Below are positions 9,739 to 35,793 of a stretch of DNA of 64,000 bases, one piece after another. The notes under the pieces are model-generated. The model saw only the letters and a program-made list of their open reading frames with translations, was not told where the DNA came from and searched no databases. The stretch lies in contig OW569366.1 in the NCBI GenBank assembly GCA_937625935.1, positions 1 to 64,000 on the forward strand, read 5' to 3'. Source of the DNA: Tetramitus jugosus. Taxonomy: Eukaryota; Heterolobosea; Eutetramitea; Acrasida; Vahlkampfiidae. Made by a program: the position numbers and the translations under genes. Each line of letters opens with the position of its first letter. Position 1 is the stretch's first letter.

Positions 9739-11051
9739 TCAGCCCCTTGTCATCCAGATTCTGATCCTTACATAGTGCAGGATTCGTTTTCGATTCCTCA
9801 AGTAACTTCCAAACATCTTTGCACAAACTGTAGCTCTCCTCAATATGATTGGCTTCAACAATTTGTGTGCGATTCCTTTTAAATTCAACATTCCAAAAAG
9901 TGTATATAACACAGAGTTATCATCAATACTTTGGATTCTGATGCAATAATAGTTGATAATGGGATCACTTCCATTGACGTTAGCATGTGGAAGTAGGAAA
10001 CTCGTAACAACTGTCATATGCTTTGGAGTAGAAAGAGGCCACGAAAGTTTCACGTGCTGTATATAAACTGAGTATGATCTTTTCTCCCTCATTTCCACTT
10101 CTGGAAAAAGAGTAGATAATTCTTCATGTGTGTAATGTCTCACTAATTCCATTCCAGCCACCTTGGAATCATAAAATTTGAAATTTTTGGCTACTAATAT
10201 GATCTTGGCTATATTGACAATGTTCCAGTCATAAGTGGTTTGAAACTTTGTCATAATAGTGTTCTTGAATGCTGAAACATTGGGAAATAGTTGAGTATTT
10301 AACTTTAGTAGATTATATCTAGTTTTCGATTTGATATCTGACCCAATCATCTTCCAGTTGAAGGAGTCGGTTTGTAGCAAATCAAATAGCATGAAATCTG
10401 TGTCTCGTACCACAGGTCTCATAAAATCATCATCAGTAAGACTGGATGTATCCAAATAAAACAATGGTTTCAATATGGCTATTGATTTCATCAAGTTGGG
10501 ATTTTTCCTCAACAGAGATTCAAAGGATGCACTTCTAACGAACCTTGGTAACGCATCTATTTTCAAGGAGGTCAATACATTGACAATAGCGGGTGCAAAT
10601 AATGTGTTGAAATCCGTTTCCTTGGACAATTGGTTCATTTGGGTATTAATGTGCCTCAATGAACTACTGGACAAATTTACTTGCTTACTTGCTGTTGCAG
10701 CTATATAGGTATTGAACAATCTCTTTGCAACATCCAACTTCTCCATAGAGTCAATAAGGTTTAGGAACTGTTCAAGATCCTTGAGAAATTCAGATTCCAA
10801 TCTGAATTTAACTCCTTCTTCAAATGTTTCAAGAAAGCATCAACTACTTTCTCTTCTTTCAGCACACCTGACCACAGAGTTGAATAGGCAAAACAATGCC
10901 TGTCATGGACGGTCTCACATACTTCACAAAAATGAGTTCGGGCAGAAGCCCAAAACACAAATTGAACAAACACCACTGATTGGTTTTGTTGTACATTCAC
11001 ACAAACGAACACTTTCGCTACAGAGGCATTAACAGAAGATGTTTGAAGCAT
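9739..11051 (-). pseudogene. RGS-START domain protein remnant
   Basis: The main frame (open from about 10,840 down to 9739, with no ATG near its 5' end) reads as the helical second half of an RGS domain: LFNTYIAATASKQVNLSSSS, then a PAIVNVL helix and LPRFVRSASFESLL, which match the RGS pattern yxxYixxxaxxqvN ... lpRFlxS. It is followed by about 200 residues that look START-like (FNWKMIGSD, YDWNIVNIAK, SYSVYIQHVKLSWPL), a lipid-binding fold. An overlapping upstream frame with an ATG at 11,051 encodes a Cys/His-containing stretch (FCEVCETVHDRHC) and joins only through a frameshift. I infer a decayed RGS-START gene. Domain names are from pattern recognition. Confidence 0.45.
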
Positions 11052-11353: not shown

Positions 11354-12481
11354 CTACGATAATGTAAAACCACCATGCTTCATTTCTTCCATTGCCCTGA
11401 TCAGTTTTTGTTTCATAATATCACTGGAATTATACTTGGGCATGTCAATACTGTAAAAACACACATGGGCAGCCGGTAGGGCATTCTTGTTTCTTGCAAT
11501 ATAAAAGTTAAATGTGATACAATTTCTTCTGTTTGGTGTCGAGTCGTTGGGATTCCAAAAAGGTTCGCTTGATCCGCCATTGAACATTCCCGTTTGTCCA
11601 GTTGCAAAGTATATTAGCATTTGTAATTGTTCCTTGTTAAATGACTTTAGTACATCTGCTAATCTTGAACAATCATTACTAGTTGCATCACCGATGAAAT
11701 CTATGTGGCTCTCCAACAACAATTGCCTATCAATAAATTGTTGATCCGTAATAAGTAGAGCCATGTCTCTTTCATTCATGTTGTCAAGATAGGATGTCAA
11801 CTCTGGAAGACTTCGAAATCCTCTACGAATGGATTTCATATTTTTCATCCGATCACTAAAAAGTTTTTTCTGCATTTTCTTCTTTATAAATTCATGTTTG
11901 TTCGAGTTATTCACATCTCTCTTGTCAGTGTAAATTATCTCTTCAAAATCTAAACACATTGCCCCAATATCATCCATCGCCAGTAGTTGTCTCATATTGC
12001 GTCCAAATTCTGCATCAACCATATCAACATCTTTCATATGTATCATTGAATGCTCGAACTCACTCTCCTTGTCATCAGGACAGAGTAAATATCTCATAAA
12101 ATATGGTGCTAAACATATAGACATTGTTCTTTGATCAAATATCATTTTGATCAACACTTTACCTATACTTTCGAACAATCTTTCATTCTTGATTTGTTGC
12201 TTTGCGTTTTTATCATCACAAATCGGTACAAATAGATTATTGTTGTCAATCTTCTCGAACAACTTCTCTGCAATATTGTTAAATATTCTTGCATAAAATG
12301 CAGTTGTCAGTGCGCCGCCATCAATTCCTTCTTCACCCTCGAATGTAACAACTAACCTCTTCATCATATTACTAGAAGTCATTGTATAAAAGCAGTTCAA
12401 AGTCGAATTAATCCAATTGGGATGATCTTGAACTCTTAACAATTTTGAGTCCCGCTGGGTAGAACGAGATTTTTCAGCAAA
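11354..12481 (-). pseudogene. HECT E3 ubiquitin ligase domain, 5' end missing
   Basis: About 375 codons, almost exactly one HECT domain. N-lobe landmarks are VTFEGEEGIDGGALTTAFY and FESIGKVLIKMIFDQR (E2-binding side). C-lobe landmarks are FATGQTGMFNGG and LPAAHVCFYSIDMPKY, in which the Cys (codon near 11,460) is the ubiquitin-accepting residue; it ends with GFTLS, as HECT proteins end near the domain. The frame opens right after an in-frame stop and has no ATG before the N-lobe; the first ATG lies about 20 codons in. All catalytic landmarks are kept. Either it is a truncated copy or the last exon of a gene whose 5' part is not recognisable. Its open frame starts only about 40 bp from the receptor's stop codon on the same strand. 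Confidence 0.7.
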
Positions 12482-12520
12482 TATATCTAATCATCGCTCA
12501 AGATCTGTAATTCAAAGCCA

Positions 12521-15500
12521 TCATGTAGTTTTCAATCCCTCATCCAGACCACCTACATCAGCCAGTTCAAAAGTTGAAACGCGTATAAGTTTGTAACGAG
12601 TGTATTCAGCAGTATCAATGAACCGAGTAAATGTGTCAGCAATGTTGGACATGGTCTCATTGTACAGCGATTTTAGAGCTGCCTCGGCCTCAAAAGCAGA
12701 CAAATGAGTATCCTTCATTGCCGATCGAATCATTTTCTTTGTTTTGTTTGGCACATTGCACTCGTAGGTAGAACCAGACTCAAGGAACTCTGAATAAATG
12801 TCATTCATCATCTCAACTCTCTGTTGAGTGAACATGATCATTGTATTCGAACGAACTTGCTCTAATCTTTTCCAAAGGAGCACATTCTCCAATGCAAACT
12901 CCTTTGCAGCGAATGCTGCGAGCATCTCGTACCCTAATTCATTCCTCAATATATCTAAAATATCTGACTCAATCGAACTGGTGCCATTCCTCATTTCTTT
13001 GATCGACTCTCTCATTTCAGACACTCGCTGATACACTTCAAGAGATGATCGATACTTGAAAAGGCTGACCATCAAAGAAAATCCCCCAAATGCAGCAATT
13101 CTGAATGCAACATACAGCACGTCAAATATGAATTCTCCAATCTTGAGGGATGAATTTGGTTGAGCTGATGAATCTAATCGATCAGAAATTCCAAATATGT
13201 AGGAGATAATCAACATTGCCATTGCTATTGCCATGAGTATCGATTCTAATCTAAACAATAAAGGATCATCTTTTGAGAAGTGAGTGAAGAATGTGTTTGC
13301 CAATGACTTGAAAGCATCTGCGCCCACAGAAAGCACTTCTTGAGGGTTTTTCTTATCCTTGCCAGAGCTGAAGTAAAATCTTCTGCCCATAACCACAGTG
13401 AGATCCCAGATGAAAACAGCAACAATCAGTCCTGCAAAACAGAATGACATGATTGAGAATGAAAGAGCATTGATGATAGAAGCAACGTTGGGAACAATGA
13501 CTCTTGTTGATTCCAGTATCGACAGGATGACAAAGTAAGCACACGAGATTACAAATATTGTGAATCCCAGAGCAACATAAACCAGTTTCGATGAAATCAG
13601 TCTCAATATTCTCATGTGTTTCTTGACTGATTTGGCAATGCTTTCTTTTGCCATTATGGAATACAAGTTCTTCAAAAAGTAGAATCTTATCATCTGCCAC
13701 AGATAAATGAACAAGGACAACAGAACAAGTGGATTGACAATTGTCAATATCAGGTACCCCAAGCTGTTCACTCCTTTGAAGTCTTTTGAGCTGTTCGCTG
13801 ATATCAACAATGAGTTTCTAATGATTCCATTCAGGATGCACTCAATAAGAATGGCACCAAGACCAATCGATGGAGCAATGAATCTCGATTTGATTGGTTG
13901 AGTGTTTCGCCACCATAATGCCATCACGATCAAAACCAATGATTGCAGAGCAAATATCGAATACATGATGATCCATGTAATATACAGTCCATTAGATGCC
14001 TTGTTAGGGTTCTTGGGATCATACACAATCATTGATGTGAAACTTGTTGTGTGATTGCAATGACAGACAATGCTAAAACCGTCAAACTGAGAAAGCCAGC
14101 AACCGTCTGTTCTCCAAGTATTGTTACTCGTTTCATCCAAGTATCGACATTCAAACATATGATTCAACGGCAATGCACTCCTATTATGAGATCCCTTCAA
14201 TACAATTTCGATCGGTTTCGTTAAATTGACGAGCTTCACTTTCTCACTCATGTCCAAAATCTTGAAAATAACAATTGGTGAAGAGATATTCTGTCCATTG
14301 TTCGACAGCGAATATGGATTCTGCTCTGCATTGAAACTGATTGATTGTACTGTGTAAGTACGAACATCGTTCAGTGAATTGATATCATCAGGAATCATCA
14401 CTGAAACAAGAGAGTTTGAAATGGAAGCATTGCGAAGTGTCGATGCAGTATCAACCCGAACACTCAAGTCAAATGAGCTCGTTGAAACAACAGTTTCAGC
14501 CTCCAGCACTATTTTGTCCCTTCCAATCAGGGTGACGAGTTGCGAAATGATATCAAGAGTCTTATTACTCAAACTGATAACTTGCTCGCCATAAATATTG
14601 GAGATAGTTGATGCCAATTGTTGTGTTTCGTTCGATCCAAGCGAAACAGCAGAAGTTAAACAGCTCTGAACAGCTAGGCTCAGAATGGTTAGAGACTTAT
14701 CAGCTGTTGATAGTGAAAACAAAGAGCTGAAACTTGACAATACATTGATTGTACTGATTTTTGAGAGAATAAAGTGCTCAGTGACGGAATCATTGCTGTT
14801 TTGAATCTCATCCAAAGTACTATTTAACATGAAATCAACCATTCCAGAATAAATAATCGTGATTTGGTGCACCGGCACACTGATGTTGGTAGCAAGCTGA
14901 CCCACTGTTGCAGCAACAATATTCAACACAGATTCTCCATTGTCTGTTCTGTTTTCTGAGTTCAAACCTTGCAATAATTGTTCGGCTCGATTCATTCGTT
15001 CGGTCGCACTAGCTTCAGAGCTGACAGGAATTGAAAACTCCGTCGATGATTCTCCTCCTTGTGAGTTCTGGACTGTGCATCGAATTCTCAGATGAGAACT
15101 GAAAGAAGGAAGAGCTGTATTAATTGTGCTGTAAATAGAATAATCTTTCAGTGCAGCAAATCTCTGAAGTATTTCATTGAAATACTCAAAAGAGTAATAC
15201 AAGGGATACGCTTCAGGGATATCAGTTGAATTGATAGAGATAGTAAACAATGTAGAAAGAGCATTTCCATCCACTGGATCAAACGTGAAACCTGTAATTA
15301 TTGGGGGAGCTGACGTTCTTGAAGTGACCGAAGCAAAGGAAACAAGTTGACCGGATGCAACATTGGCATATCGAGCTCTGATCATGAAAGTGTAACTGTT
15401 GTTGTACTTGAGTGTATATTCTGGGATAACCAAGGGAATCAGAGTGGAAGATGTTCGCATGAAAATAACACTTTGAGATGAATCTGCTCTCACTGACCAT

Positions 15501-17176
15501 TCATATTCAACTCCATAACCACCAATGATATTTGATACATTGGCAGAAATTCTCAAAACTTTGAGTGGATTCAGAATGGTTGGGACAACACTCGAGATCT
15601 TCAACACTGGAATCACACTTTCTCGATTCACAATCTGTATGATTATACTTGCATTTCCAACTCGGTTCGTTACGAAAGGATTTGGAGTATACATTAATGA
15701 TATTGTATAATTTCCAGGACCTTCATCCAAGAGAGTTGTGACTCCAGAAGGAAGTTGTTTTGAGCATGAATCGCAACTCCACTTGTAGATTGCTCCAGTA
15801 ATCGAGCCATAAAGTGGATCACTGCTTTGACTGGCATCAAGCAAAATCGTATTTCCAGCCAATACCATTCGATTTCCACCACTGATAACAGCATTTGGTT
15901 TCGTTTCAATCACTGTTACAGGAACTGATCGAATAGCTTCTAAATGATCAGAAACAATCTGAACCGAAATACTTCCAGCAGCTTTAACCGTAAATGACAA
16001 ATAGTTCAATGTTGTGGAATAAGATTGACCTTGAATGAACCAAGTCTTTTTGGTGCTCACCAAACAACTTGGAATCTCGGTCAGATATGCGAAGAGAGAT
16101 AAAGAGCCGGTGTCTTTTACAGATAAGGTGCCCGTTCCTGACAATTCTATTTTAGCAATGGCTTTTCTTCGAAAGAATGTCAATGAATTCGATTCACTCA
16201 ATTGATTTCCTTGGAGAGCGTAAATAAACAATGATATCGTCACATTTTCATTCGTAGGAATGAATTGATTGGGAACAATCAATGTTTTGTTGTTCTGGTT
16301 GACCAAATATTGAGTGATGTTCTGAGATGTTGTTGATGTCTTCCAAACATATCTCCTTCCACTCATATCATTGTTGCTCTGAATTGATTGTATACTAATA
16401 TCTTCACAAGGATCTATCATTGTGTAATTGGAGCTGATCAAAACCTGCAAATTTTCGATAGCACAATTAGTGGTTGTGTATCCCCATTCACATTGACACT
16501 TATCTGTGAAAAGACAACTTCCATGACCTGAACAAACAGCGGTGTCGTTAGAATCCACTCCAAAACAAAAAAACTTTGGACAACTGATATTGAATGTCAA
16601 TGAGTTCGAGACTGCCAGTTGATTTTCTTGGAGATCATAAATGAACAATGATATCGTCACATTTTCATTCGAGGGAAAATATCCATTGGGAACAACCAGA
16701 GTGTTGCTCTGTTGATTGATTAAATAGTTTGTAATGTTTTGAGATGTTGTTAAAGCCCTCCAAATATACTTTCTTCCACTCATATCATGGTTGCTCTGAT
16801 TTGATTGAATAACAATGTCTTCACAAGGGTACAATGAATTATTAGAGCTGATCAACACCTGCAAATTTTCAATGCCACAATCAAGGTCCTCATAGCCCCA
16901 TTCACATTGACACTTATCAGCGGAAATACAATTTCCATTCCCTGAACAAACGGCAGTATTATTAGAATCCACTCCAAAACAAAAAAACTTTGGACAACTG
17001 ATATTGAATGTCAATGAGTTCGAGACTGCCAGTTGATTTTCTTGGAGATCATAAATGAACAATGATATCGTCACATTTTCATTCGTAGGAAAGTATCCAT
17101 GGGAACAACTAAAGTGTTGTGTTTCTGGTTGACCAAATATTGAGTGATGTTCTGAGATGTTGTTGATGTCTTCCAA
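12521..17176 (-). CDS. Adhesion-GPCR-like receptor with REJ, GPS, 7TM and C-terminal RGS domain (3' part of giant receptor)
   Basis: A 1,551-codon frame with no ATG at its 5' end; its first 25 codons are an out-of-frame tail of a repeat. Residues about 25-330 are tandem modules of an EGF-like Cys motif (CSGNGNC, CQCEWGY) and a roughly 100-residue beta-rich unit (YIWRALTTSQNIT). About 340-720 is REJ/PKD-like (ISGGNRM, LLDASQSSDP, YKWSCDSC). About 1010-1055 is a GPS motif with paired Cys/Trp and CHCNHTTSF, the expected autoproteolysis site at HT/T. Seven hydrophobic helices span about 1066-1375. About 1405-1530 is an RGS domain (AKEFALENVLLWKRLE, FTRFIDTAEY), which would speed GTP hydrolysis by a G-alpha subunit. 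It continues the 17,314-20,727 frame across a 1-base deletion and a nonsense codon. Confidence 0.85.
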   Translation of the reverse strand: MEDINNISEHHSIFGQPETQHFSCSHGYFPTNENVTISLFIYDLQENQLAVSNSLTFNISCPKFFCFGVDSNNTAVCSGNGNCISADKCQCEWGYEDLDCGIENLQVLISSNNSLYPCEDIVIQSNQSNHDMSGRKYIWRALTTSQNITNYLINQQSNTLVVPNGYFPSNENVTISLFIYDLQENQLAVSNSLTFNISCPKFFCFGVDSNDTAVCSGHGSCLFTDKCQCEWGYTTTNCAIENLQVLISSNYTMIDPCEDISIQSIQSNNDMSGRRYVWKTSTTSQNITQYLVNQNNKTLIVPNQFIPTNENVTISLFIYALQGNQLSESNSLTFFRRKAIAKIELSGTGTLSVKDTGSLSLFAYLTEIPSCLVSTKKTWFIQGQSYSTTLNYLSFTVKAAGSISVQIVSDHLEAIRSVPVTVIETKPNAVISGGNRMVLAGNTILLDASQSSDPLYGSITGAIYKWSCDSCSKQLPSGVTTLLDEGPGNYTISLMYTPNPFVTNRVGNASIIIQIVNRESVIPVLKISSVVPTILNPLKVLRISANVSNIIGGYGVEYEWSVRADSSQSVIFMRTSSTLIPLVIPEYTLKYNNSYTFMIRARYANVASGQLVSFASVTSRTSAPPIITGFTFDPVDGNALSTLFTISINSTDIPEAYPLYYSFEYFNEILQRFAALKDYSIYSTINTALPSFSSHLRIRCTVQNSQGGESSTEFSIPVSSEASATERMNRAEQLLQGLNSENRTDNGESVLNIVAATVGQLATNISVPVHQITIIYSGMVDFMLNSTLDEIQNSNDSVTEHFILSKISTINVLSSFSSLFSLSTADKSLTILSLAVQSCLTSAVSLGSNETQQLASTISNIYGEQVISLSNKTLDIISQLVTLIGRDKIVLEAETVVSTSSFDLSVRVDTASTLRNASISNSLVSVMIPDDINSLNDVRTYTVQSISFNAEQNPYSLSNNGQNISSPIVIFKILDMSEKVKLVNLTKPIEIVLKGSHNRSALPLNHMFECRYLDETSNNTWRTDGCWLSQFDGFSIVCHCNHTTSFTSMIVYDPKNPNKASNGLYITWIIMYSIFALQSLVLIVMALWWRNTQPIKSRFIAPSIGLGAILIECILNGIIRNSLLISANSSKDFKGVNSLGYLILTIVNPLVLLSLFIYLWQMIRFYFLKNLYSIMAKESIAKSVKKHMRILRLISSKLVYVALGFTIFVISCAYFVILSILESTRVIVPNVASIINALSFSIMSFCFAGLIVAVFIWDLTVVMGRRFYFSSGKDKKNPQEVLSVGADAFKSLANTFFTHFSKDDPLLFRLESILMAIAMAMLIISYIFGISDRLDSSAQPNSSLKIGEFIFDVLYVAFRIAAFGGFSLMVSLFKYRSSLEVYQRVSEMRESIKEMRNGTSSIESDILDILRNELGYEMLAAFAAKEFALENVLLWKRLEQVRSNTMIMFTQQRVEMMNDIYSEFLESGSTYECNVPNKTKKMIRSAMKDTHLSAFEAEAALKSLYNETMSNIADTFTRFIDTAEYTRYKLIRVSTFELADVGGLDEGLKTT

Positions 17177-17400
17177 ACATATCTCCTTCCACTCATATCA
17201 TTGTTGCTCTGAATTGATTGTATACTAATATCTTCACAAGGATCTATCATTGTGTAATTGGAGCTGATCAAAACCTGCAAATTTTCAATACCACAATCAA
17301 TGTTTGTATATCCTCATTTACAATGACACTTATCAGGGGCAATACAACTTCCATTCCCCGAGCATACAGAACTGTTGTTGAAATTCACTCCAAAGCAAGA
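16150..17400 (-). repeat. Tandem ~418 bp repeat units inside the receptor gene
   Basis: Three units of about 140 codons follow one another, each with an EGF-like Cys motif and a beta-rich block. They share long exact stretches: 16,293-16,456 equals 17,123-17,286 (164 bp), and 16,548-16,671 equals 16,962-17,085 (124 bp). The outer unit (17,100-17,316) carries the nonsense codon and the frameshift. Exact identity over such lengths points to recent unequal exchange or gene conversion. Confidence 0.85.
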
Positions 17401-20400
17401 AAACTTGTCACAAACGAAACCACTGTATCCTGTCTCACATATACATGTGCTCATATCAACACATGCTCCATGGCCTGAACAATTGCTATTTGCATTTTCT
17501 TTCACACTGCATATCGCAGATGATGAGCAATTCAAAGTTGGAAGACGCGGGTCTGTTTTTATGCTCGTTTCAATCTGAACAAAAGCACTCAGTCCCAATG
17601 CCACACTGCTCGATAAAGGATATGGTTGATTGAGATTGAAACTGTCACAAGCACGTTGTTCATCAAACCACCAACCTGACTGAGTTTGAGTTGCACATGA
17701 ATAGTTTGAGACACCCGGGAATGAGAACTGAACTCCATCCAATATAAAGTCAGGATTAGAGGAGTTTTGTGGAAATAGAGATCGGAAATCAATTGTGTAA
17801 TTGTTGAGACTTGAACCGACTGACATATAAGCTGTTTTCGATTCAGGAGTCGATGAAATTGTAACCGTGTCAAAAAAAACATCGGCTCCCATCGAAGTCA
17901 GTGTGTGAAGTTTCTTCAATCCCAAGAAAAATTCTCCATCCAACAAGCCAAAGCCTTCCTCATATTCATACTTGTTTCTACTAAATGATGATAATCCATT
18001 GTATCGCTTGTGAACAACAATTGACCTTCTTTGTGTGTTACAAACAACGAGCATCGATCCACAAGATGTTGGTTGAATCTCATAAACACCGGATGGAGCT
18101 CTTGGCCACAAAGACACAACATCAGAACAATCTCTAACAGTTGCATTGAACAAAGTAACTTGAACTGGATTCGAGGAAGAGTCCAAGAAAGGAAAGGGTA
18201 GAATATCGCCTGTTCCATTCATTAGTGAATCGAGATTCGAGACTCCAGCTAGGGGAAGGATTTCACTACTTGTGAAAACTCCCCAATTGTTGAATTGGGC
18301 ATTCAGTGCAGTTGGAGAATTGATGTTGGAATGTCGCAATATAGTACCTGGTCCCTGTTGCACAAAAGAATTTCTTCTGATTTTGACAGGATTTTGAACT
18401 TCAAGCAAGCAATGTGAAGAAGTTCCTCTCAGCTCGTTCCAACTGAATTCAATTGAGTCTGGACAATTGGTGGTACTCAGGCGAACAGGTTCCTCATTGT
18501 ACAAAATTTTGTTACTGGAAATCAATGTTTGTCCACCACAATCAAAGGCAGCAACATACAAAGGAGAATCAATAACTGTACTCTCGATTACATTATTAGA
18601 TATGTCTACGTCTCCCGCGTTGTATTTTTCTATCCTCATTGTTGCTTTCGTGAGAGTATTATTTTGAATCAAAATCCTTCCCTCGAAACCCGTCACATTA
18701 GACATCGAGAATATCGCTTCAAACTGCGAGTTCGAAGCGATAAATCGATTATTATCTATTGATATGGTTCTTACTGCATATGATCTCACAACTACACCTC
18801 TTTGGGAGTCTATGATACTGTTCAATGAGAATTTACACTCCTCGAGCGTAAAATTTTTAGTGTTGGTGTATTCTGCTCCAATGCTGACTCCTGAGAACGT
18901 ATTATTGATAATATTCATAGTCACTAATTCTATCGAAGAATCATCCTGTAAAACCACTATTCCATCAAAATAGTTGGAGGAATCTGCCACAAATGAGCTG
19001 TACATGACAGACAAGCCTCGAACATTGTGAGCAAACACACATCTCTGATTACAGGAAGAGAATGAAGTATGATTCACATTCACTGTGCCACCATTGATAA
19101 ACAATCCCAATCCTTGAACATCAGCAAAACTTAAATTAATTTCCGAATCTGAGTTAACTGTGATGTTTCTGAAACCTTGAAAGCAATGAACCTTGGCTAA
19201 AGAATTATCAGCTATTCCTTTTGCATTCAGCCGACCATTCTCCAAATGAAGATCTTCATAAGTAATCATTGTTCCCAAGATAGTCAATGACGATCTTACA
19301 ATCAACTCAGACCGAATGTGATACTCAAACTCTTGGGAAAAAAAATTATCTTGTATCATATTTGGAAAATCAATGTAAATTCTTGGTGCAGTAATCGACT
19401 GAACCGATGTTGTCATCCGAGCAAACATCATGTTCTGCTTCTCATTCAACAATGGAATACTTGCACCCCATACTCTGTTCTGACAATCTGAGTGAGCAAC
19501 AAAAATCAAGTCGGACGCACCAAAAGCAATGAGAGCAACACCTCTGTTGACTCCATCACCATGAAGCTTCACATCGACCCTTTCAACTGCAAATGAACTA
19601 TTTAACTGGATAATGAACCCCATTGAACTGTTTGCAGCAGCGGATAGATGTGTTCCATTCACGTCAACTGCACCAAAAATCTCACCCGTGAGAAAAGTGT
19701 ATGGCGAGAATTGAACCGCACTTCGAAAAACAATGATGTTATCAGCTGATCCCACCGTAGACAGAAGGGAATGGACATGCTGTGCAGCCCCAGATCCATC
19801 AATGTCTATTGCCTTGATTGAAGCATTTTCGTCTGGAAAGAAATACACATTAGCAAAGAGAGGATGACGAGAAGGAGGATAACCATAGGTTGTTTTAGGA
19901 TGCAAATAGCACCATGACCAAGAGGAACTTTGGTATTGAGCAACAAATGCAGTTTTTTGAGTGATGGGCGTTGTGTTTTGGGGATTGAATTGCACTGATC
20001 CTTCGATAACACCAGATACGATATAGTTAGGCATTCGATCTTGCAATACATAACCAGCATTAATTCCTTCTGCAAGCGAGCTTTGGCCATAGAGAACATT
20101 TTGGGGATTGATCACCTGCTGACATGAGACGAACACACTGGTGAACGTTGAATGCGTATCATCATCAATATAACCCATATATCCTGTGAAACATACCCCA
20201 CTAGGGATCCTAGGAATAATATCAAAAACTTTTGCTATTGTTGTGTTAAATGAATTCGGATTGGTTGCTCTGATACATCCCAACAAATTTCCATCAAGGT
20301 CCAACTCACACACAGTTGCCTCACTCGAAGGTGAGTTTTCCATTTGAGTGAAACCACCAATGAATAGCATGTTGGTAAAACCACCATCCATTGACAAAGT

Positions 20401-20727
20401 TGCACTCGTGGGATAAAATCCTTTTGTCAAAGTTTCATCGATCAGAGCCTTGTACCACACCAAAGTACCATCACCCGTGTACCTCATGACACCACATGGA
20501 TATGTTCCATTTTGAGACAATGGTGAAGCAGGACTCAACTCACCAATCATGAATACACTATCATTGGACGCATCAGCACAACTATCTTTAACTGTGAATT
20601 CATTGTCACCACCTGCAAAATTGAAATAGCGTGTCTGAAGGGCAAGACCACTGACTTTTTGTGACAAAAAGTAGAGAGCAAGGAACAGGGAACAATGCAG
20701 CAAAAAAAGCAAAAGTTTTCCCTTCAT
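17314..20727 (-). CDS. Ectodomain of giant receptor: signal peptide, beta-rich region, fibrinogen-related and EGF-like domains
   Basis: The ATG at 20,727 begins a 1,137-codon frame. Residues 1-27 are a signal peptide. About 30-460 is beta-rich and resembles a repeat propeller (VWYKALID, LFIGGFTQ, FLTGEIFG). About 480-830 is Asn-rich with short repeated strands (NNTFSGVSIG, ISNNVIES, ISSNKILYN), typical of a parallel beta-helix. About 865-965 is fibrinogen-related: RDCSDVV, GVYEIQP, RYNGLSSF, GFGLLDGEFFLGLKKLHTLT. Near 1085-1137 are two EGF-like motifs (CSGHGACVDMSTCICETGY, CSGNGSCIAPDKCHC). The frame ends at a TGA (17,314-17,316) exactly where the neighbouring repeats have TGG (Trp) in C-x-C-x-W-G-Y, and the same protein resumes beyond it. 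It is therefore the N-terminal part of the 12,521-17,176 receptor. Confidence 0.85.
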   Translation of the reverse strand: MKGKLLLFLLHCSLFLALYFLSQKVSGLALQTRYFNFAGGDNEFTVKDSCADASNDSVFMIGELSPASPLSQNGTYPCGVMRYTGDGTLVWYKALIDETLTKGFYPTSATLSMDGGFTNMLFIGGFTQMENSPSSEATVCELDLDGNLLGCIRATNPNSFNTTIAKVFDIIPRIPSGVCFTGYMGYIDDDTHSTFTSVFVSCQQVINPQNVLYGQSSLAEGINAGYVLQDRMPNYIVSGVIEGSVQFNPQNTTPITQKTAFVAQYQSSSWSWCYLHPKTTYGYPPSRHPLFANVYFFPDENASIKAIDIDGSGAAQHVHSLLSTVGSADNIIVFRSAVQFSPYTFLTGEIFGAVDVNGTHLSAAANSSMGFIIQLNSSFAVERVDVKLHGDGVNRGVALIAFGASDLIFVAHSDCQNRVWGASIPLLNEKQNMMFARMTTSVQSITAPRIYIDFPNMIQDNFFSQEFEYHIRSELIVRSSLTILGTMITYEDLHLENGRLNAKGIADNSLAKVHCFQGFRNITVNSDSEINLSFADVQGLGLFINGGTVNVNHTSFSSCNQRCVFAHNVRGLSVMYSSFVADSSNYFDGIVVLQDDSSIELVTMNIINNTFSGVSIGAEYTNTKNFTLEECKFSLNSIIDSQRGVVVRSYAVRTISIDNNRFIASNSQFEAIFSMSNVTGFEGRILIQNNTLTKATMRIEKYNAGDVDISNNVIESTVIDSPLYVAAFDCGGQTLISSNKILYNEEPVRLSTTNCPDSIEFSWNELRGTSSHCLLEVQNPVKIRRNSFVQQGPGTILRHSNINSPTALNAQFNNWGVFTSSEILPLAGVSNLDSLMNGTGDILPFPFLDSSSNPVQVTLFNATVRDCSDVVSLWPRAPSGVYEIQPTSCGSMLVVCNTQRRSIVVHKRYNGLSSFSRNKYEYEEGFGLLDGEFFLGLKKLHTLTSMGADVFFDTVTISSTPESKTAYMSVGSSLNNYTIDFRSLFPQNSSNPDFILDGVQFSFPGVSNYSCATQTQSGWWFDEQRACDSFNLNQPYPLSSSVALGLSAFVQIETSIKTDPRLPTLNCSSSAICSVKENANSNCSGHGACVDMSTCICETGYSGFVCDKFSCFGVNFNNSSVCSGNGSCIAPDKCHCK

Positions 20728-21127
20728 CTCGAACTGTGCGTGCTTAACAAAGCCTTAGAGATGGTGAGCTCACTAATGTTGAATAGTCTTGATCGATTTG
20801 TTGTTTGTTGGGATCACTGCCAATGATATCTGATACCTGGTGGCCCAAGAGGGAAAACAAAAACAACGACCTCACATGTCGCGGAGAAAAAAACGCGTTT
20901 TTTCACACAACAAAGGACGCTTTTCCGCAATTGGGTTCTTGTGATCAGAGACCTTCTCGCACATGCTTCATGCCGTGGTGTCGAAAAAGTACGCACTCTA
21001 CAAGTGCATGCATCTCAATCTATTTCATAGCTCTATCTCATCCCAGTAATTTCCCCTCTACCACAGTCTTCACATGTGTTCGTTTCTTGTTCTGCTTGTC
21101 TAACTTTTTGTGTGTTTCAGAAAAATA

Positions 21128-21766
21128 ATGAACCAACGGTTACGCGACATGCATTTGAGTGACATTCCACCCGAGATCATTCACACTCACATCTTCAAGT
21201 TCCTTACCACTGAAAAACAATTGGTTACTCTATCCTTGGTGTGCCAACAATGGAACCAAGTCATTGATGTACCCATAGTCGTCGACACTGAAACTCCCCA
21301 AATTCAACAAAGAGTGAGTGACACTGGTTCAGCATTGGAATTAGTCCTTGTTCAATTCAACCCAATAATCAACAATTATTGGAACGCCAAAATGAATTAT
21401 GAGAAGCATCGTTTGTCAGCCAAGTACTCGTTGATTCATATTGCTAAGGGAGCTACTTTTGAGTTTGAAAAGATGCAAGGAAGGCAAGAAGACTATAAAG
21501 AATTTCTGGAGGGATATTCCTATGCTTTTGGATCAGCTCCATATGGTGTACGGACTTCGACTGGACTGTTTCAAGAGTTGAATGATTGCTTGTTTGGTGG
21601 TACTTCTGATGACAACATACAACATTTGGAAATATACTCGTGGGTGGATCAACCATGGTCTTCCTTCTTTGATGCTGGATTGGAATGGTGGGGTGTCTTC
21701 ATCTCCACCATTTACAACAAGAAAACAGGAACAATGTGTTGTGTCGCTGCTTCAACAACAGATTAA
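21128..21766 (+). CDS. F-box protein
   Basis: A 212-residue protein from the ATG at 21,128. Residues about 10-50 are an F-box (LSDIPPEIIHTHIFKFL, then LSLVCQQWNQVI), the Skp1-binding module of SCF ubiquitin ligases. The remaining 160 residues have no repeat or domain that I recognise; they contain aromatic clusters (SYAFGSAPYG, SWVDQPWSSFF, LEWWGVF). Just before the start, TTTTTGTGTGTTTCAG resembles a 3' splice site, so a 5' leader intron is possible. No frame defect. It is divergently arranged with the giant receptor, with about 400 bp between starts. Confidence 0.75.
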   Translation: MNQRLRDMHLSDIPPEIIHTHIFKFLTTEKQLVTLSLVCQQWNQVIDVPIVVDTETPQIQQRVSDTGSALELVLVQFNPIINNYWNAKMNYEKHRLSAKYSLIHIAKGATFEFEKMQGRQEDYKEFLEGYSYAFGSAPYGVRTSTGLFQELNDCLFGGTSDDNIQHLEIYSWVDQPWSSFFDAGLEWWGVFISTIYNKKTGTMCCVAASTTD

Positions 21767-22159
21767 TACTCATGGCGGCTCGAGTGATGGATGAGAAAGC
21801 GACCTTAGCCTTAATACTCTATATCTGTTGAGCAATTCTTCATTAATTAGTGACTGAATAGAACAGGAATAAGGACAAAAGTGGGCAGTATTTTACAATG
21901 AAATATAATTTCGTTAATCTTTCACCAAACAGATTTGACGTCTTTACCAGAAATGCCTCAACAGTCACGTGCCTACATCATTAAGGAGACGATAGTTGTG
22001 AATACCAGTGCCACAACCATAAGAATTCTCATTGGTTTCAACGAATTGTGTGCTAATGATGCATCGCCTTTGGAGTTTCCAGCAGCGATCTTGAGGAAAG
22101 AAAAACTGTGAGATTACTCATTGTTGTTCACCTTATTCTCTTGGTGCAAGTATCTAGCA

Positions 22160-24053
22160 GCGTTATTGAGTTGAAATATTGGATTCACAAGTTCTGCTTT
22201 CCACATCAACCAACGCATTCACATCAAATGAGAAGATGGAACTCTTTTGTCCTGCCGAAATGATAGTAGTGGAAGTACTCGAATTGGGTACTCCCTTGTT
22301 CACCAGTTGGAACCACCTGGACATTGATTGTGAATCATACACAGTGCATCCTGGTCTATTCTGAGAAGGATTGAACTCTGGCATTCCTCCCGTGTATCCA
22401 CTCTTCATACAACACAAATGCATTGTGAACTTGAAGGAGTTGGTCATTGGACAGAACAGGACCTGATTGAGACAAGCACTTGATCACCAGAAGAAAATTC
22501 TCTCTTCTCAATGCCATTTATTATTGGACAAGACAATATCAGTTGCATAGGCTAGATTCAATGGGGGATTGGGCAGAATGATCTCATAAGATACTTCGAA
22601 TGGAATGGAATAATTAGAGATTGGAGTATGGTTGGTAAGAGAGGCTAGCAGAACAAAGGAATCTGAGAATGAACTCAAATTTTCTCTCGAAATGAGCTTC
22701 ACATTGTAAACTATGGCTGATGGCGAGGATAGAGTGAAAGCTCACTTCGAACTTGTCTGCTCCCAATGAGGAATATTTCAAATAAATACTGGATAGAGTA
22801 TATCCACTCATCAAGATACTCAACTCAGAGCCAATAACAATAACTTGATCACCTTCTCTTGGATACACAGATTGGACAGACAACTTGATCAATTCTTGGG
22901 CCTGATTACTAGTAGTGTTGAACACTGTGAATGTCTGACTGCTCAATTGTGCATAGATAGCTTGCGAGGCATGGAAGGAAACAACAGTTCTCTTCTCATC
23001 ATTCACGTAATGAATATACAATGTCGCCCAGATTTTGAGGATTTGATCTCTCTTGAGTCGAGACGAAGTTCATGGAATCACAACTCTGTAGCCGTTGGTG
23101 CAATTACTTTTTGAAATTAGCTCTCCAATAGAGACAGTGGAGTTTTGGAACAAATTCTCACCATTAAATGCTTCATAAGTGATCAAGTGCCTCATCGAAG
23201 GGGCAATCTCTTGTTGGTCATTGAAATGAAAAACTGAAGAGACTCAGAGTTCCATTGTGCCGACACAGGGGTCGTGGTGCTCCAAAAATTTCACTGCTCA
23301 TCCATCGATAGGAAGTTTCTTGCGGTCAAAAGTTGTAATATCTGAACGATTGCATTGACAAGTATCAGGAGCAATACATTGACCCGTTTCCTTGCAGTAG
23401 ACACGTAGAGCACTGATCCAGTGAGACCAGTCACTTGAGTTGGAGTCTTGACAGTTGTAGTTGTGTTACCAAGTCCAAGTTGACCATCAACATTGCAGTA
23501 CCATCAGTGGTACCAAATGCAATACTAGTGACATTGCCTCCCTTCAATCCATTGAACTCCTTTGGTGCAAAGACGTGTAGCTTTGACTCTCCCTTGGTCA
23601 AGAAGGCGTTTGGGTATCTCTGAGCGCCCCACAAGAACAATTTTCCACTGACTCTAGCAATGGCTCCAGAGACAGAGAAACTAGCAGCAATCTTCTCAAT
23701 CATCATCTCTTCGCTTTCATCAGAGTATACATTGATGACAGTAGGGAGAGAACGTTGGTTTGAGGATCAGGTAATCTTGAGACATCTCCCTGAACATGAA
23801 GCTTTTGGTCACTTCTGAGAACAAAGAGATTACTGTCGAGGGATTGAATGGTGGTGCCGTTGGGAAACCTTTGATCAGAGAGCTTTGTCCAGGAGAGAAA
23901 TGCTGGCGGCAGGCTGTCATGACTTTTCAACACTCCCAAGCTACCAAAAGTGTTGTTACCAACAACCCAAATCTCATTTAAGTAATCAGTTGAATCCACG
24001 GTGACCACGCTCAATGAAAATCTACCTAGACTGAGTATGTAACTAACACTCAA
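22160..24053 (-). pseudogene. RCC1/EGF-type receptor remnant
   Basis: Several minus-strand frames, each closed by stops, read in order as parts of one ectodomain. About 24,053-23,431 holds RCC1-like propeller motifs in two frames (IWVVGNNTFGSLGV, GKLFLWGAQRYPNA). At 23,341-23,400 is an EGF-like motif (CKETGQCIAPDTCQCN), close to the EGF motifs of the giant receptor. From about 23,020 to 22,160 is beta-rich extracellular-like sequence (VQSVYPREGDQVIVIG). There is no usable start and at least four frame breaks. No membrane or intracellular part is seen, so the locus is a truncated relic of a large surface protein. Confidence 0.5.
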
Positions 24054-29097: not shown

Positions 29098-29226
29098 CCT
29101 TTAGAATACTCTTCGTTGCTGCCAATGGTAAATAAAGCGGTTGTCTGTTGTGTATCGGATGAATTTTTCGCTCACGTTCACATCACACAAAAACACGTTG
29201 CACGAACAAAAATCCACCGTAAAACA

Positions 29227-30879
29227 ATGAACATTCGCTTGTTCTCATCCCTTCGTAAACAGAACAACACCAACACCACGCATGCCGCAACAAACAATGA
29301 TGATGATGACTCCACAATCAGCAGCAGCAGCAGTTCTAGTGATGATGAAAGTTGTGACGAAGCCATTAGCATGATCAGTAATCCAATCATGATGCCTACC
29401 AGTCAAAGCTCACCTCATCCTCATGACGCGTCAACAACATCCACTACTACTGCTCATCCACAACAACAACAACAACAAAATGCATCAAGCAGTAGTCACA
29501 TCTCACCCACTGCTTTTTTTTTTTCTCATAAAATGAATCAAAGTCGTCAAAACAACAACAACCATACTACTAAGAAGAATACGAATAGGAACAAGAAACA
29601 GCATTCTGTACATGATGCTGATGCTGATGACGATGCTTTTAATCATCATGTGAGTCCAATGAAGAGACAAATGCGAGCTCTACGAAAATCTCAACGAAAA
29701 ATTTTTAGACTTGTGAGTAGAGATACAGCTGGTCGAGGCAGCACTGGTCACTTTAATTTGATCAAGCACAATATTCCATTGTCTCAGAGGTTTGTTGCCT
29801 ATCGTGACATGTATCATGCATTGTTGAATCTCAGGTGGTACAAGTTGTTTGCGCTGTGTCTTGCTTTTTATGCATTGATTCACTTTTTTTTCGGCCTATT
29901 GTACTACTTGGGTGGCAAGGGTGGTTTGGAGAATTCGGACACGTACGACTACTGGAATTGCGTATTTTTTTCTGTTCAGACATTTTCTACGATTGGTTAT
30001 GGCAAAGTCTATCCGAGCAGTTATTACACCAATGTGATTGTTTCGATAGAGTCGTTTGTGGCCATGTTTGCAGAGTGTTTTGTGTTGAGTTTGGTGATTG
30101 GTAAGTTTACGAGACCTAGTTTACTCAAGAGACAAGTCATGTTTTCAAATGTTGCTGTGGTGAATCACAAGGACTTTGAGGGTCGAACAGATGACGAATA
30201 TCAATACTTGTCATTCCGTTTTATCAACATGCAAAAATCTCAGTTTGTTGATGCTCATTTCCGATTATTGTTGCTGCATTGGAATTATGAGGAGGAGTCG
30301 AATGATGATCCATTACTACTGGATTATGCTGGACAGCAGCAGCTACATGGAGAGGATCTTGCTCATGGTACAACGGATCCCAACATATCTGTTCCCTATC
30401 AGAGCATCAATGATCACACAGCGCTATTGAGTCATCATGTACCTCACAGTAACAACAATAACAGTAGTAACAATAGCAGTTACAATCACAAAAAGAAAAA
30501 GGGGAGGAGAGCTTTGGCACCTACTGTTTATGAACTGGACTTTCAGATCAACGTGCAAAAGGGTTTTGCAAGAACAATCGATCACGCTTCTCCAATCCTG
30601 CCTATTCCTTGGACAGTGATTCACAGAATTGATGCACACAGTCCTCTCTATCCAATGATCCAAGACAGGAAGCTGATGAGAAACATTGAAATTATTGCCA
30701 TTTATGATGCGATCGATGAAGCCACCAGTCACAACATTCAATCCCGTTTTTCATACACCAAGAACGAAATCTTCATTGGTTCGGCATTCCAGAATTGCAT
30801 GTTCCGAGAGAAGAATCGGTTTGCTGTGGATATGAAGTTTTTTGATGAGATAGTGCCTTGCAATTCACATGATATCTGA
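29227..30879 (+). CDS. Inward-rectifier potassium channel (Kir family)
   Basis: 550 residues from the ATG at 29,227 (an in-frame ATG at 29,125 is also possible). The first 170 residues are low complexity (Ser, Gln, His, Asn tracts) and basic. Two membrane helices follow: WYKLFALCLAFYALIHFFFGLLYY and NVIVSIESFVAMFAECFVLSLVIG. Between them lies a pore loop with the filter TIGYG (Thr at residue 255). The C-terminal cytoplasmic domain is Kir-like and beta-rich: LSFRFINMQKSQFVDAHFRL, PWTVIHRIDAHSPLY, and a final KNRFAVDMKFFDEI. An Asn/Ser/Lys-rich insert interrupts it near residue 415. It should conduct K+ across the plasma membrane or a vacuole membrane. The frame is intact. Confidence 0.9.
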   Translation: MNIRLFSSLRKQNNTNTTHAATNNDDDDSTISSSSSSSDDESCDEAISMISNPIMMPTSQSSPHPHDASTTSTTTAHPQQQQQQNASSSSHISPTAFFFSHKMNQSRQNNNNHTTKKNTNRNKKQHSVHDADADDDAFNHHVSPMKRQMRALRKSQRKIFRLVSRDTAGRGSTGHFNLIKHNIPLSQRFVAYRDMYHALLNLRWYKLFALCLAFYALIHFFFGLLYYLGGKGGLENSDTYDYWNCVFFSVQTFSTIGYGKVYPSSYYTNVIVSIESFVAMFAECFVLSLVIGKFTRPSLLKRQVMFSNVAVVNHKDFEGRTDDEYQYLSFRFINMQKSQFVDAHFRLLLLHWNYEEESNDDPLLLDYAGQQQLHGEDLAHGTTDPNISVPYQSINDHTALLSHHVPHSNNNNSSNNSSYNHKKKKGRRALAPTVYELDFQINVQKGFARTIDHASPILPIPWTVIHRIDAHSPLYPMIQDRKLMRNIEIIAIYDAIDEATSHNIQSRFSYTKNEIFIGSAFQNCMFREKNRFAVDMKFFDEIVPCNSHDI

Positions 30880-33274: not shown

Positions 33275-33472
33275 GTCATCGATGGGAATCATGGAGAAGT
33301 AAAACCAAAAGAATGGAATCGAATTTTGCTCAGAAATCGAACTGTCCAGCAAAAATGCATTAAAAGAAGGAGCGGAGTAATACAGCTGTTGTATTTCTGT
33401 TTGATCACACGCGAATTTTGATGTTCCATAAAGCGAGAAAGTTGTCCTATACTCATAAAACGAGAAGAGAGA

Positions 33473-35793
33473 ATGACGAGGGATATCGACATTGCTCTAC
33501 CCTTTCAAAGTTGGAGAAACAGTCCCGGTGAATGCGAAAACCATAAGACACGACGTAAGAATCCAAAGATTAAATCGCCTCTCATTCGCGATGCACTGAA
33601 AATGGCATGGAGTTTCAGTTTTGTTTTTCTGGTCGTTTTATTACTGTCATTGCTTGTCATTGGATTATCCACGTGGCTCGTGAATCGATATCTGAGACAA
33701 ACTGCAGTGAACGATCTTGCACGTAAGAATGGAGAGGCCCTCCTGGAGAGAACCATTAACATTATCCACTTTTTCACGGATCGGTTGCCCAATCACCTTC
33801 GCACTTTGAGAAGTGAGATTCAACTGGGAGATAGATATGGGTTGAACACGAGTGATCCATTGAGCACAAAAGGGCAGTTATCTCTTCTCATCATTGTAAC
33901 CAGTCAAGTTGAGTTTGTCTCATTCTCACTCATCAATTCCTTCTGGTTTGGAACGAAAGAAGAATATTTCACAGGCGTGGTAAGCACTAATTTGAATGGT
34001 TCCGACAGTCTCACTTACCAAGTATCTAATGCGAATGGAATTCTTAGCAATTATCGTCTTTCCGACAGATTAGTCATTGCTCCGAAACCATTCATGCAAA
34101 AGGATGACTATTTCCCAACGAATCGCTCTTGGTTCAAAATTGGAGAGATCAGTCCTACGTTCCAGTGGGATACTATTTCTTTTTCTGAAGAATTACCAAG
34201 CATTCTGACTGTTTCACTGTCAGGTCCATACTCGAAAGAACGAGGCGGAGAGGTGCTTGGAGTAATTGGTGGTTCTATGAACTTGTTTACCCTATCTGCT
34301 ACTCTCGGAATGTTTCCTGTGCTTCAGGATACGAGATTGTTTATTATAGATCCTAACATGTTCTTGGTTGCATCGAATACGGAAGGTCTTGCAAATTTTT
34401 CTGATCCAATCAAACCCACACTATTGGACACACGAAACAGCTTTGATTCTGTTGTACGAGATACTGCAAGAACGATACAAAACAAGTTTGGTGTGCCCTT
34501 ACACGTCAGTAACAAGACCACTTCAGAGTTGAAGTTTAAGGATTCCACGGGAATTCACCGGAGGGCAACAATGCTCGCAGTTAATGATCCATATGGTTTG
34601 GATTGGATATGTGTAACTGTGCTTTCGGAAAAGGAACTACTACGATCTGCGCGGAAAGCAACGCGAACTGCAACTATTGTAACAGTTTGTTGTATAGCTG
34701 GTTCTGTTATCATTGCGTTTTTGGTCAGCTCTCTGACTATGGTACCATTGTACAAATTATCGAGAGAACTTCAGAATATTGCCTGGATGAATTTTCAAAA
34801 CAAAAGGAAGGACAGGATACCATCATTTCATTTTTATGAGCTAGAAGTTATGGCCTCTTCGATACGCCATCTAAAACATGGTCTTCAATGTTTTGATATT
34901 TATGTTCCATCAGATGTTGTCCGAGTTCTTGTTAGGAACAATGCAAGTGCACGGTTGGGTGTTGTGAAAAGACGAATGACAATCAGTTTTGCTGATATAC
35001 AATTTAGTTACACCGAAAGAGTATCACCTCAAATAATAGTAGAAATTCTGCAAGTGATATTCACAGAATTATCTCAAATTATATCGAACAATGGCGGAGT
35101 AGTTGATAAGTACATCTCTGAGTGCCTCATGTCTCTCTTCAATGCGCCACTCCAGTTGGAACAACATGAATTATGTGCAGCCAGAGCCGCTTTGCAAATG
35201 GTTGAAGCACTTGAAGAGTTAAACAAGAGGTGGATCTCTCAAAATTATCCTCAGGTATCCATTCGAATCGGCTTGAACTCTGATACTTGCTTGGTGGGTA
35301 ATGTGGGAAGTAGGAAGAGAGTTAGCTATACTGTTCTTGGCGATGCAGTTAATGTTGCGAGTCGTTTGGTATCTCTTAATTCGCGTTATGGAACGAAAAT
35401 TGTGATTGGCCCACTCACAAGAGAAGCCATATCCAATCAATATGTTTGTCGATGGCTTTCCTCTTTGGTAGTGAAGGGAAAATCTGAGAAATGTATGTTT
35501 CTATTACTTTGTATTTCACGATGTGTCAATGAGAAAGCAAACCTAACGTCATCAATTAAGTAAATGTGTATGAGTTGCTAATTGAGAGAGAAAGAGCTTC
35601 TACAGATCAGAGTGAAAAAGAGAAGTGGTTCGAACAAGTCAAGTTATCTCTCGAAGCTAACAATTTTGAAAGAACAGCTCATCTTGTCCGCCTTTTGCGT
35701 GGCAGATACCCAGAGGATAAAGCAGCGCTAGAGCTTGAAGAACGGCTCAGGGATCCAAATTTCAACCCAGTTCTAGTTTTACTTGATAAATGA
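33473..35793 (+). CDS. Membrane sensor nucleotidyl (adenylyl) cyclase, class III, one intron
   Basis: From the ATG at 33,473; exon 1 to 35,492, intron 35,493-35,560, exon 2 to 35,793, giving 750 residues. TM1 near residues 43-68 is followed by a large Cache-like extracellular sensor, TM2 (TATIVTVCCIAGSVIIAFLVSSL) and a HAMP-like linker. The cyclase domain begins TISFADIQ (Asp 508, first metal ligand), keeps the purine-specifying Lys in VDKYISE, and has GDAVNVASR, with the Asp typical of adenylate specificity and the Asn/Arg pair. Two motifs deviate: FSYT replaces GFT, and SE replaces GD, so the second metal Asp is Glu 550. Without splicing the frame stops at residue 696 inside the conserved end of the domain. 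Confidence 0.88.
35493..35560 (+). other. Spliceosomal intron in the cyclase gene
   Basis: The bases at 35,493 are GTATGT directly after AAAT, and 35,555-35,560 is ATTAAG, giving a 68 bp GT-AG intron. Removal joins GKSEK to LNVYELLIER, restoring the usual end of the cyclase domain and a continuous frame of 54 further codons. Reading through instead gives an unusual hydrophobic tail and a stop. Confidence 0.75.

Follow-up and report, generated by a model that had tools for sequence, protein, structure and literature searches.

An interrupted copy of a large GPS-7TM-RGS receptor family, with fibrinogen and REJ modules, at a contig end of Tetramitus jugosus

Proteins in which seven transmembrane helices (7TM) are followed by an RGS domain have been described in Naegleria fowleri, and the main text of that report lists 28 of them, a number of which carry a GPS and several of which carry EGF and lectin domains, and calls them 'reminiscent of the adhesion GPCRs' (J Biol Chem 2022, PMC9283941). 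According to the same main text, N. fowleri has self-activating G-alpha subunits alongside slow-exchange ones, isolated 7TM-RGS domains show GAP activity, and the 7TM-RGS chains of AtRGS1 and of Trichomonas are GAPs for self-activating G-alpha. That text nowhere uses the terms REJ, fibrinogen, GAIN or 'tethered'. A second paper gives up to 10 putative adhesion GPCRs per Naegleria species (PMC8296547). No other paper on the combination of GPS, RGS, REJ, GAIN, fibrinogen and Naegleria was found in the open-licence literature (subscription papers could differ), and the term RGS is absent from the first 300,000 of the 412,533 characters of a 2026 review of adhesion GPCRs. Here we describe a locus of Tetramitus jugosus that is best read as an interrupted copy of a large GPS-7TM-RGS family, the intact members of which may be adhesion-gated GAP receptors; we give this reading a probability of about 0.5. 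The receptor class itself is already published (2022, N. fowleri). New here are the presence of REJ and of fibrinogen, an invariant H-T-T with a tethered-agonist-like motif, and a 7TM without clear class. The initial annotation knew of no described protein with the whole domain set, which holds for REJ and fibrinogen only, since 7TM-RGS proteins with GPS and EGF had been reported (PMC9283941).

The window, by which we mean the whole stretch of 64,000 nucleotides that was analysed, forms the left end of contig C23 (OW569366.1) in a genome of 26.3 Mb and 56 contigs. A telomere-like CCCAAA/TTTGGG array of 843 bases (140.7 copies) occupies positions 1-843 at the contig end. The receptor locus consists of two minus-strand frames, the upstream one at 17314-20754 (1146 codons, first ATG at 20727, codon 10) and the downstream one at 12521-17197 (1558 codons). 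Its parts, from the N-terminus, are as follows.

20665-20727, minus strand: start codon and signal-peptide-like hydrophobic stretch (hydropathy peak, frame residues 12-30)
19438-20664, minus strand: N-terminal beta-rich region, propeller-like by eye only, about 50% identical to the paralogue L036
18145-19437, minus strand: probable right-handed beta-helix, judged from paralogue segments
17620-18138, minus strand: Fibrinogen_C (PF00147, 55.1 bits, E 1.2e-13, genome search)
17130-17316, minus strand: interruption, an in-frame TGA (17316-17314) and then a frame switch, ahead of the point where the second frame resumes (sequence and translations)
16175-17406, minus strand: tandem array of three 414-bp units, in each of which an EGF-like motif is joined by a stretch of Ig-like size (Tandem Repeats Finder, 3.0 copies, 81% matches)
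14972-15970, minus strand: REJ (PF02010, 67.2 bits, genome search)
14024-15007, minus strand: GAIN, helical part and beta sandwich
14036-14152, minus strand: GPS with a putative H-T/T cleavage site, followed by the tethered-agonist-like TSFTSMIVY (PF01825, 33.1 bits)
13001-14002, minus strand: seven-transmembrane region (seven hydropathy peaks; model helices 367-700)
12593-12955, minus strand: RGS (PF00615, 48.4 bits, E 2.2e-11; RGS14 and RGS2 by sequence)

Just downstream, at 9739-10839, lies another minus-strand RGS frame, with a HECT ubiquitin-ligase frame (11354-12490) between it and the receptor. The window also holds an inward-rectifier-type potassium channel frame (29098-30879) and a nucleotide-cyclase frame (33422-35563) with a weak match to a PDC-type sensor.

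When the whole frames were scanned with Pfam, Fibrinogen_C (51.9 bits, 1.1e-13), GPS (3.7e-6) and RGS (6.7e-11) scored above cut-off. REJ was absent from the output of that scan and was recovered by the genome search and by scanning the fragment 14671-15997 (70.6 bits, 1.3e-19, cut-off 25). The GPS motif precedes the first helix, and hydropathy has seven peaks in the stretch from GPS to RGS, giving seven helices and then a C-terminal RGS in the one chain of the downstream frame. The Pfam scan returned no match for 19438-20664 or for the window's own beta-helix segment, and EGF models stayed below cut-off in the window frames; they were above it in the intact relatives L035, L036 and L037. Two of seven aligned family segments matched the beta-helix model PF13229 (best 3.4e-8) and one of the seven matched NosD. 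A profile search of PDB found no beta-helix relative; on the evidence of the paralogues, a beta-helix is probable. The domain set and order first proposed for the locus are thus upheld for fibrinogen, REJ, GPS, the seven helices and RGS, the GPS and RGS calls by Pfam profiles and the 7TM by hydropathy and an AlphaFold2 model, and its EGF and beta-helix parts rest on paralogues.

The initial annotation had further read the two frames and a small bridging frame as one protein. For this copy that reading is not supported: a TGA and a frame switch, both inside the first of the three tandem 414-bp repeats, separate the halves, and neither the sequence nor its translations join them in a single frame. 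An uninterrupted full-length reading frame is absent from the window copy, which belongs to the family by descent. The one-chain order as such is borne out by the intact paralogues L036 (2444 codons from its ATG) and L037 (2482 codons), which establish it: both run without a break across the whole frame, with Fibrinogen_C, EGF_Teneurin, GPS and RGS each above cut-off. Across 17 intact proteins of the genome scanned with Pfam, GPS was above cut-off in all and RGS in 16, L021 falling just under (20.1 against 23.9 bits).

Profile searches of the genome, whose domain counts are lower bounds, found at least 41 GPS and at least 130 RGS domains in the 26.3 Mb. For 33 of the 41 GPS, the same strand carries an RGS domain 928-1084 bp further downstream, in 32 cases within the same open frame. 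So regular a pairing, like the E-values of the domain calls, exceeds what chance would give; it used all 41 GPS rows and 57 of the 130 RGS rows, and a check of the remaining RGS rows by eye gave no further partner for the eight leftover GPS. REJ was present within 3.5 kb upstream in 27 of the 33 GPS-RGS genes (26 in the open frame of the GPS), and fibrinogen within 6 kb in 15, every one of which also has REJ. These counts draw on every one of the 44 REJ rows and on 19 of the 31 rows for fibrinogen, the other 12 belonging to tandem arrays on contigs C10 and C30. Each of those arrays (C10:79850-86911 and C30:375132-382193) has seven fibrinogen domains in tandem; the open frames that carry them are 5449 and 4461 codons long, respectively.

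It is highly improbable that the locus holds two genes, the upstream one for a secreted adhesin with fibrinogen and EGF parts and the downstream one for a shorter receptor of REJ-GPS-7TM-RGS type, even though the sequence as it stands has two open frames. The second frame starts in the middle of a repeat and has no signal peptide, intact paralogues carry both parts in a single frame, and fibrinogen and GPS share one open frame in 13 of the 15 fibrinogen-bearing members, the exceptions being the window copy and C47c.

The closest relatives of the window copy, C47a, C47b and C47c, lie on contig C47. C47b (L036) reads uninterrupted from its ATG to the stop codon. C47c is divided between two frames, one of 1600 and one of 903 codons. 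In C47a the frame breaks close to the 5' end, and the ATG that now opens it is therefore unlikely to be the one first used. Towards the opposite end of C23 lies a fourth copy, with 92% protein identity, six in-frame TGA and several segments missing. When C23:480500-498800 (L005, L033, L034) is set against window positions 21163-24000 and 12.5-20.1 kb, this decayed receptor copy appears in pieces that are 95-99% identical, and the two ends of C23 have further blocks in common, in mirror order.

Comparison of the window copy with the C47 copies gave dN/dS of 0.20-0.21 for the downstream half (last ~895 codons), in a test with three comparison genes of which two (C47a and C47c) are themselves broken. 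For the upstream half dN/dS was 0.24-0.26 over 853 and 1110 codons, with dS in the 1110-codon pair at 1.06, near saturation. Changes private to the window copy numbered 88 nonsynonymous and 109 synonymous. These ratios and counts indicate, at the sequence level, that both halves have been under purifying selection in the past and that the protein was constrained for most of its history. With past constraint on both halves and lesions in this copy, recent death is the simplest reading, and the window copy is probably a recently broken or inactivated gene.

The same constraint would also be expected if the gene were intact in the living cell and a full-length receptor were made, the break being either an assembly error or removed with an intron. 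We hold this to be possible, at less than even odds. The lesions do fall in a tandem repeat, a kind of sequence prone to assembly error, and introns were seen by eye in G-alpha genes of the same genome; 645 GT-AG pairs could join the two frames, too many to discriminate. However, L036 and L037 read through the corresponding region continuously, so no intron is conserved there, and breaks cluster in this subfamily (C47a, C47c and the far-end copy on C23), which gene death fits better than random error.

The motif C-x-C-x-H-T-T-x-F was found in the window copy and in 26 of 26 other loci of the genome that were read, the H-T-T pattern itself having served to pick the frame within each locus. Among proteins from outside the genome, 18 of 20 have H-T-T, one has H-A-T and one gave no match. 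The GPS site of adhesion GPCRs is usually H-L-S/T, from which H-T-T departs. The T-S-F-x-x-[MF] stretch that follows the site resembles the tethered agonist of adhesion GPCRs. Seven residues of the RGS domain, E734, E738, N739, N782, D822, T823 and R826, do not vary among the 20 rows of an alignment that includes the window copy (A1). Their counterparts in RGS2 and RGS10 are the E-N, N and D..R positions, which we take to contact G-alpha. With these key residues conserved, RGS may be an active GAP in this family, and G-alpha genes are present in the genome, with matches at many places.

The AlphaFold2 model comprises GAIN, seven membrane-length helices and RGS with a mean pLDDT of 77.6; its pTM is only 0.52, and the relative packing of the domains is not readable from it. 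GAIN and RGS of the model match solved folds, and GAIN also matches adhesion receptors by sequence profile. The modelled 7TM has a GPCR fold, for which VIA-align favours class C and Foldseek lists CD97 and GLP-1R. The class B profile 7tm_2 matched three other genes of the genome and none of the 33 GPS-RGS genes, and a 7TM profile matched no PDB chain.

An intact member would thus run, in order, from a signal peptide through a beta-rich region, a probable beta-helix, fibrinogen, EGF-like repeats, REJ, GAIN/GPS and seven helices to RGS. In the mechanism we propose, the outer modules would bind a surface, prey or a sugar ligand, and GAIN would cut itself at H-T/T and hold the T-S-F-x-x-[MF] stretch as a tethered agonist. 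A pull or a ligand would free that stretch and change the 7TM, and the changed 7TM would cause RGS to speed up, or to release, GTP hydrolysis on a self-activating G-alpha. Such a GAP receptor is preferred over a braked exchange-factor receptor because N. fowleri, in the main text cited, has both self-activating G-alphas and GAP activity in its 7TM-RGS domains (PMC9283941). The alternative, a conventional exchange-factor GPCR that adhesion switches on and that RGS in the same chain limits, seems to us possible but less likely. It would suit the GPCR fold of the 7TM, the homology of GAIN to that of animal adhesion GPCRs and the slow-exchange G-alphas of N. fowleri (PMC9283941, main text); against it are the lack of any sequence match between the 7TM and class B or a PDB chain, and the description of the precedents AtRGS1 and Trichomonas as GAPs. 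As regards outcome, regulated GAP activity appears at least as likely as the self-limited G-protein signal first envisaged, which presupposes a 7TM that works as an exchange factor.

Relatives from protein searches came from Naegleria gruberi, N. lovaniensis, N. fowleri, Willaertia magna and metagenomes. At E 0.01, the 20 rows of alignment A1 have RGS in 20, GPS in 13 and REJ in 3, and fibrinogen is not among the families listed for them. One metagenome protein, P0013, combines fibrinogen and GPS and is incomplete at its C-end. Another, P0025, is 96.7% identical to the paralogue L018 over 1798 residues, which indicates that the same or a near species is present in that metagenome. In a tree of 47 rows with 27 of the 33 GPS-RGS genes, the window copy falls among heterolobosean GPS-7TM-RGS proteins and groups with the C47 copies (L004, L035, L036) at 100/100. 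The fibrinogen label changes three times on this tree: one clade holds 15 of the genome's genes (L016, inside it, is without fibrinogen), and P0013 stands far off beside P0004. These changes imply that the fibrinogen domain was acquired repeatedly, or acquired and then lost again, while the core stayed constant.

Of the eight GPS genes without RGS, seven have REJ and none has fibrinogen, and their frames reach 4720 codons. The two that were read (L044 and L045) show 8 and 9 hydropathy peaks after GPS and look polycystin-1-like; both carry C-x-C-x-H-T-T-x-F, and their GAINs match those of the receptor family (phmmer, own set). We put forward, tentatively and as a doubtful proposition, that a REJ-GAIN/GPS unit common to the local polycystin-1-like proteins, H-T-T included, became fused with a 7TM-RGS signaller that is unrelated and not of class B; the family would then have been assembled independently of animal adhesion GPCRs, its tethered agonist gating a GAP and not an exchange factor. 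If the proposed mechanism is true, self-cutting mechanosensing domains can connect not to an exchange factor alone but also to the off-switch of a G protein. Within a single genome the family offers about 30 natural variants of the ectodomain, all on the same core, and with a REJ-GAIN unit that polycystin-like proteins have in common with 7TM-RGS proteins, ideas on how adhesion receptors arose can be put to the test outside animals.

The family compares most directly with the 7TM-RGS proteins of N. fowleri, which also have 7TM followed by RGS, GPS and EGF-like repeats and form a large family (28 proteins, against 33 GPS-bearing genes here); in contrast, neither fibrinogen nor REJ is mentioned in the main text on those proteins, and the window copy is interrupted (PMC9283941). 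The two closest named Naegleria relatives are without fibrinogen in precomputed Pfam lists. With animal adhesion GPCRs (latrophilins, BAI, CD97) the family has in common the fold and sequence of GAIN, a GPS, a tethered-agonist-like stretch and a modular ectodomain, but it differs in its C-terminal RGS, in H-T-T and in a 7TM that does not match class B by sequence. To our knowledge, the plant protein AtRGS1 has no giant ectodomain and no GPS. Like the present family, it fuses a 7TM to RGS and is likely a regulated GAP (PMC9283941, main text). Polycystin-1 and other REJ proteins have the same succession of REJ and GAIN/GPS, and REJ is also present in seven of the eight RGS-less GPS genes of this genome; where polycystin-1 continues into eleven helices or a longer membrane tail without RGS, the heterolobosean family continues into seven helices and RGS.
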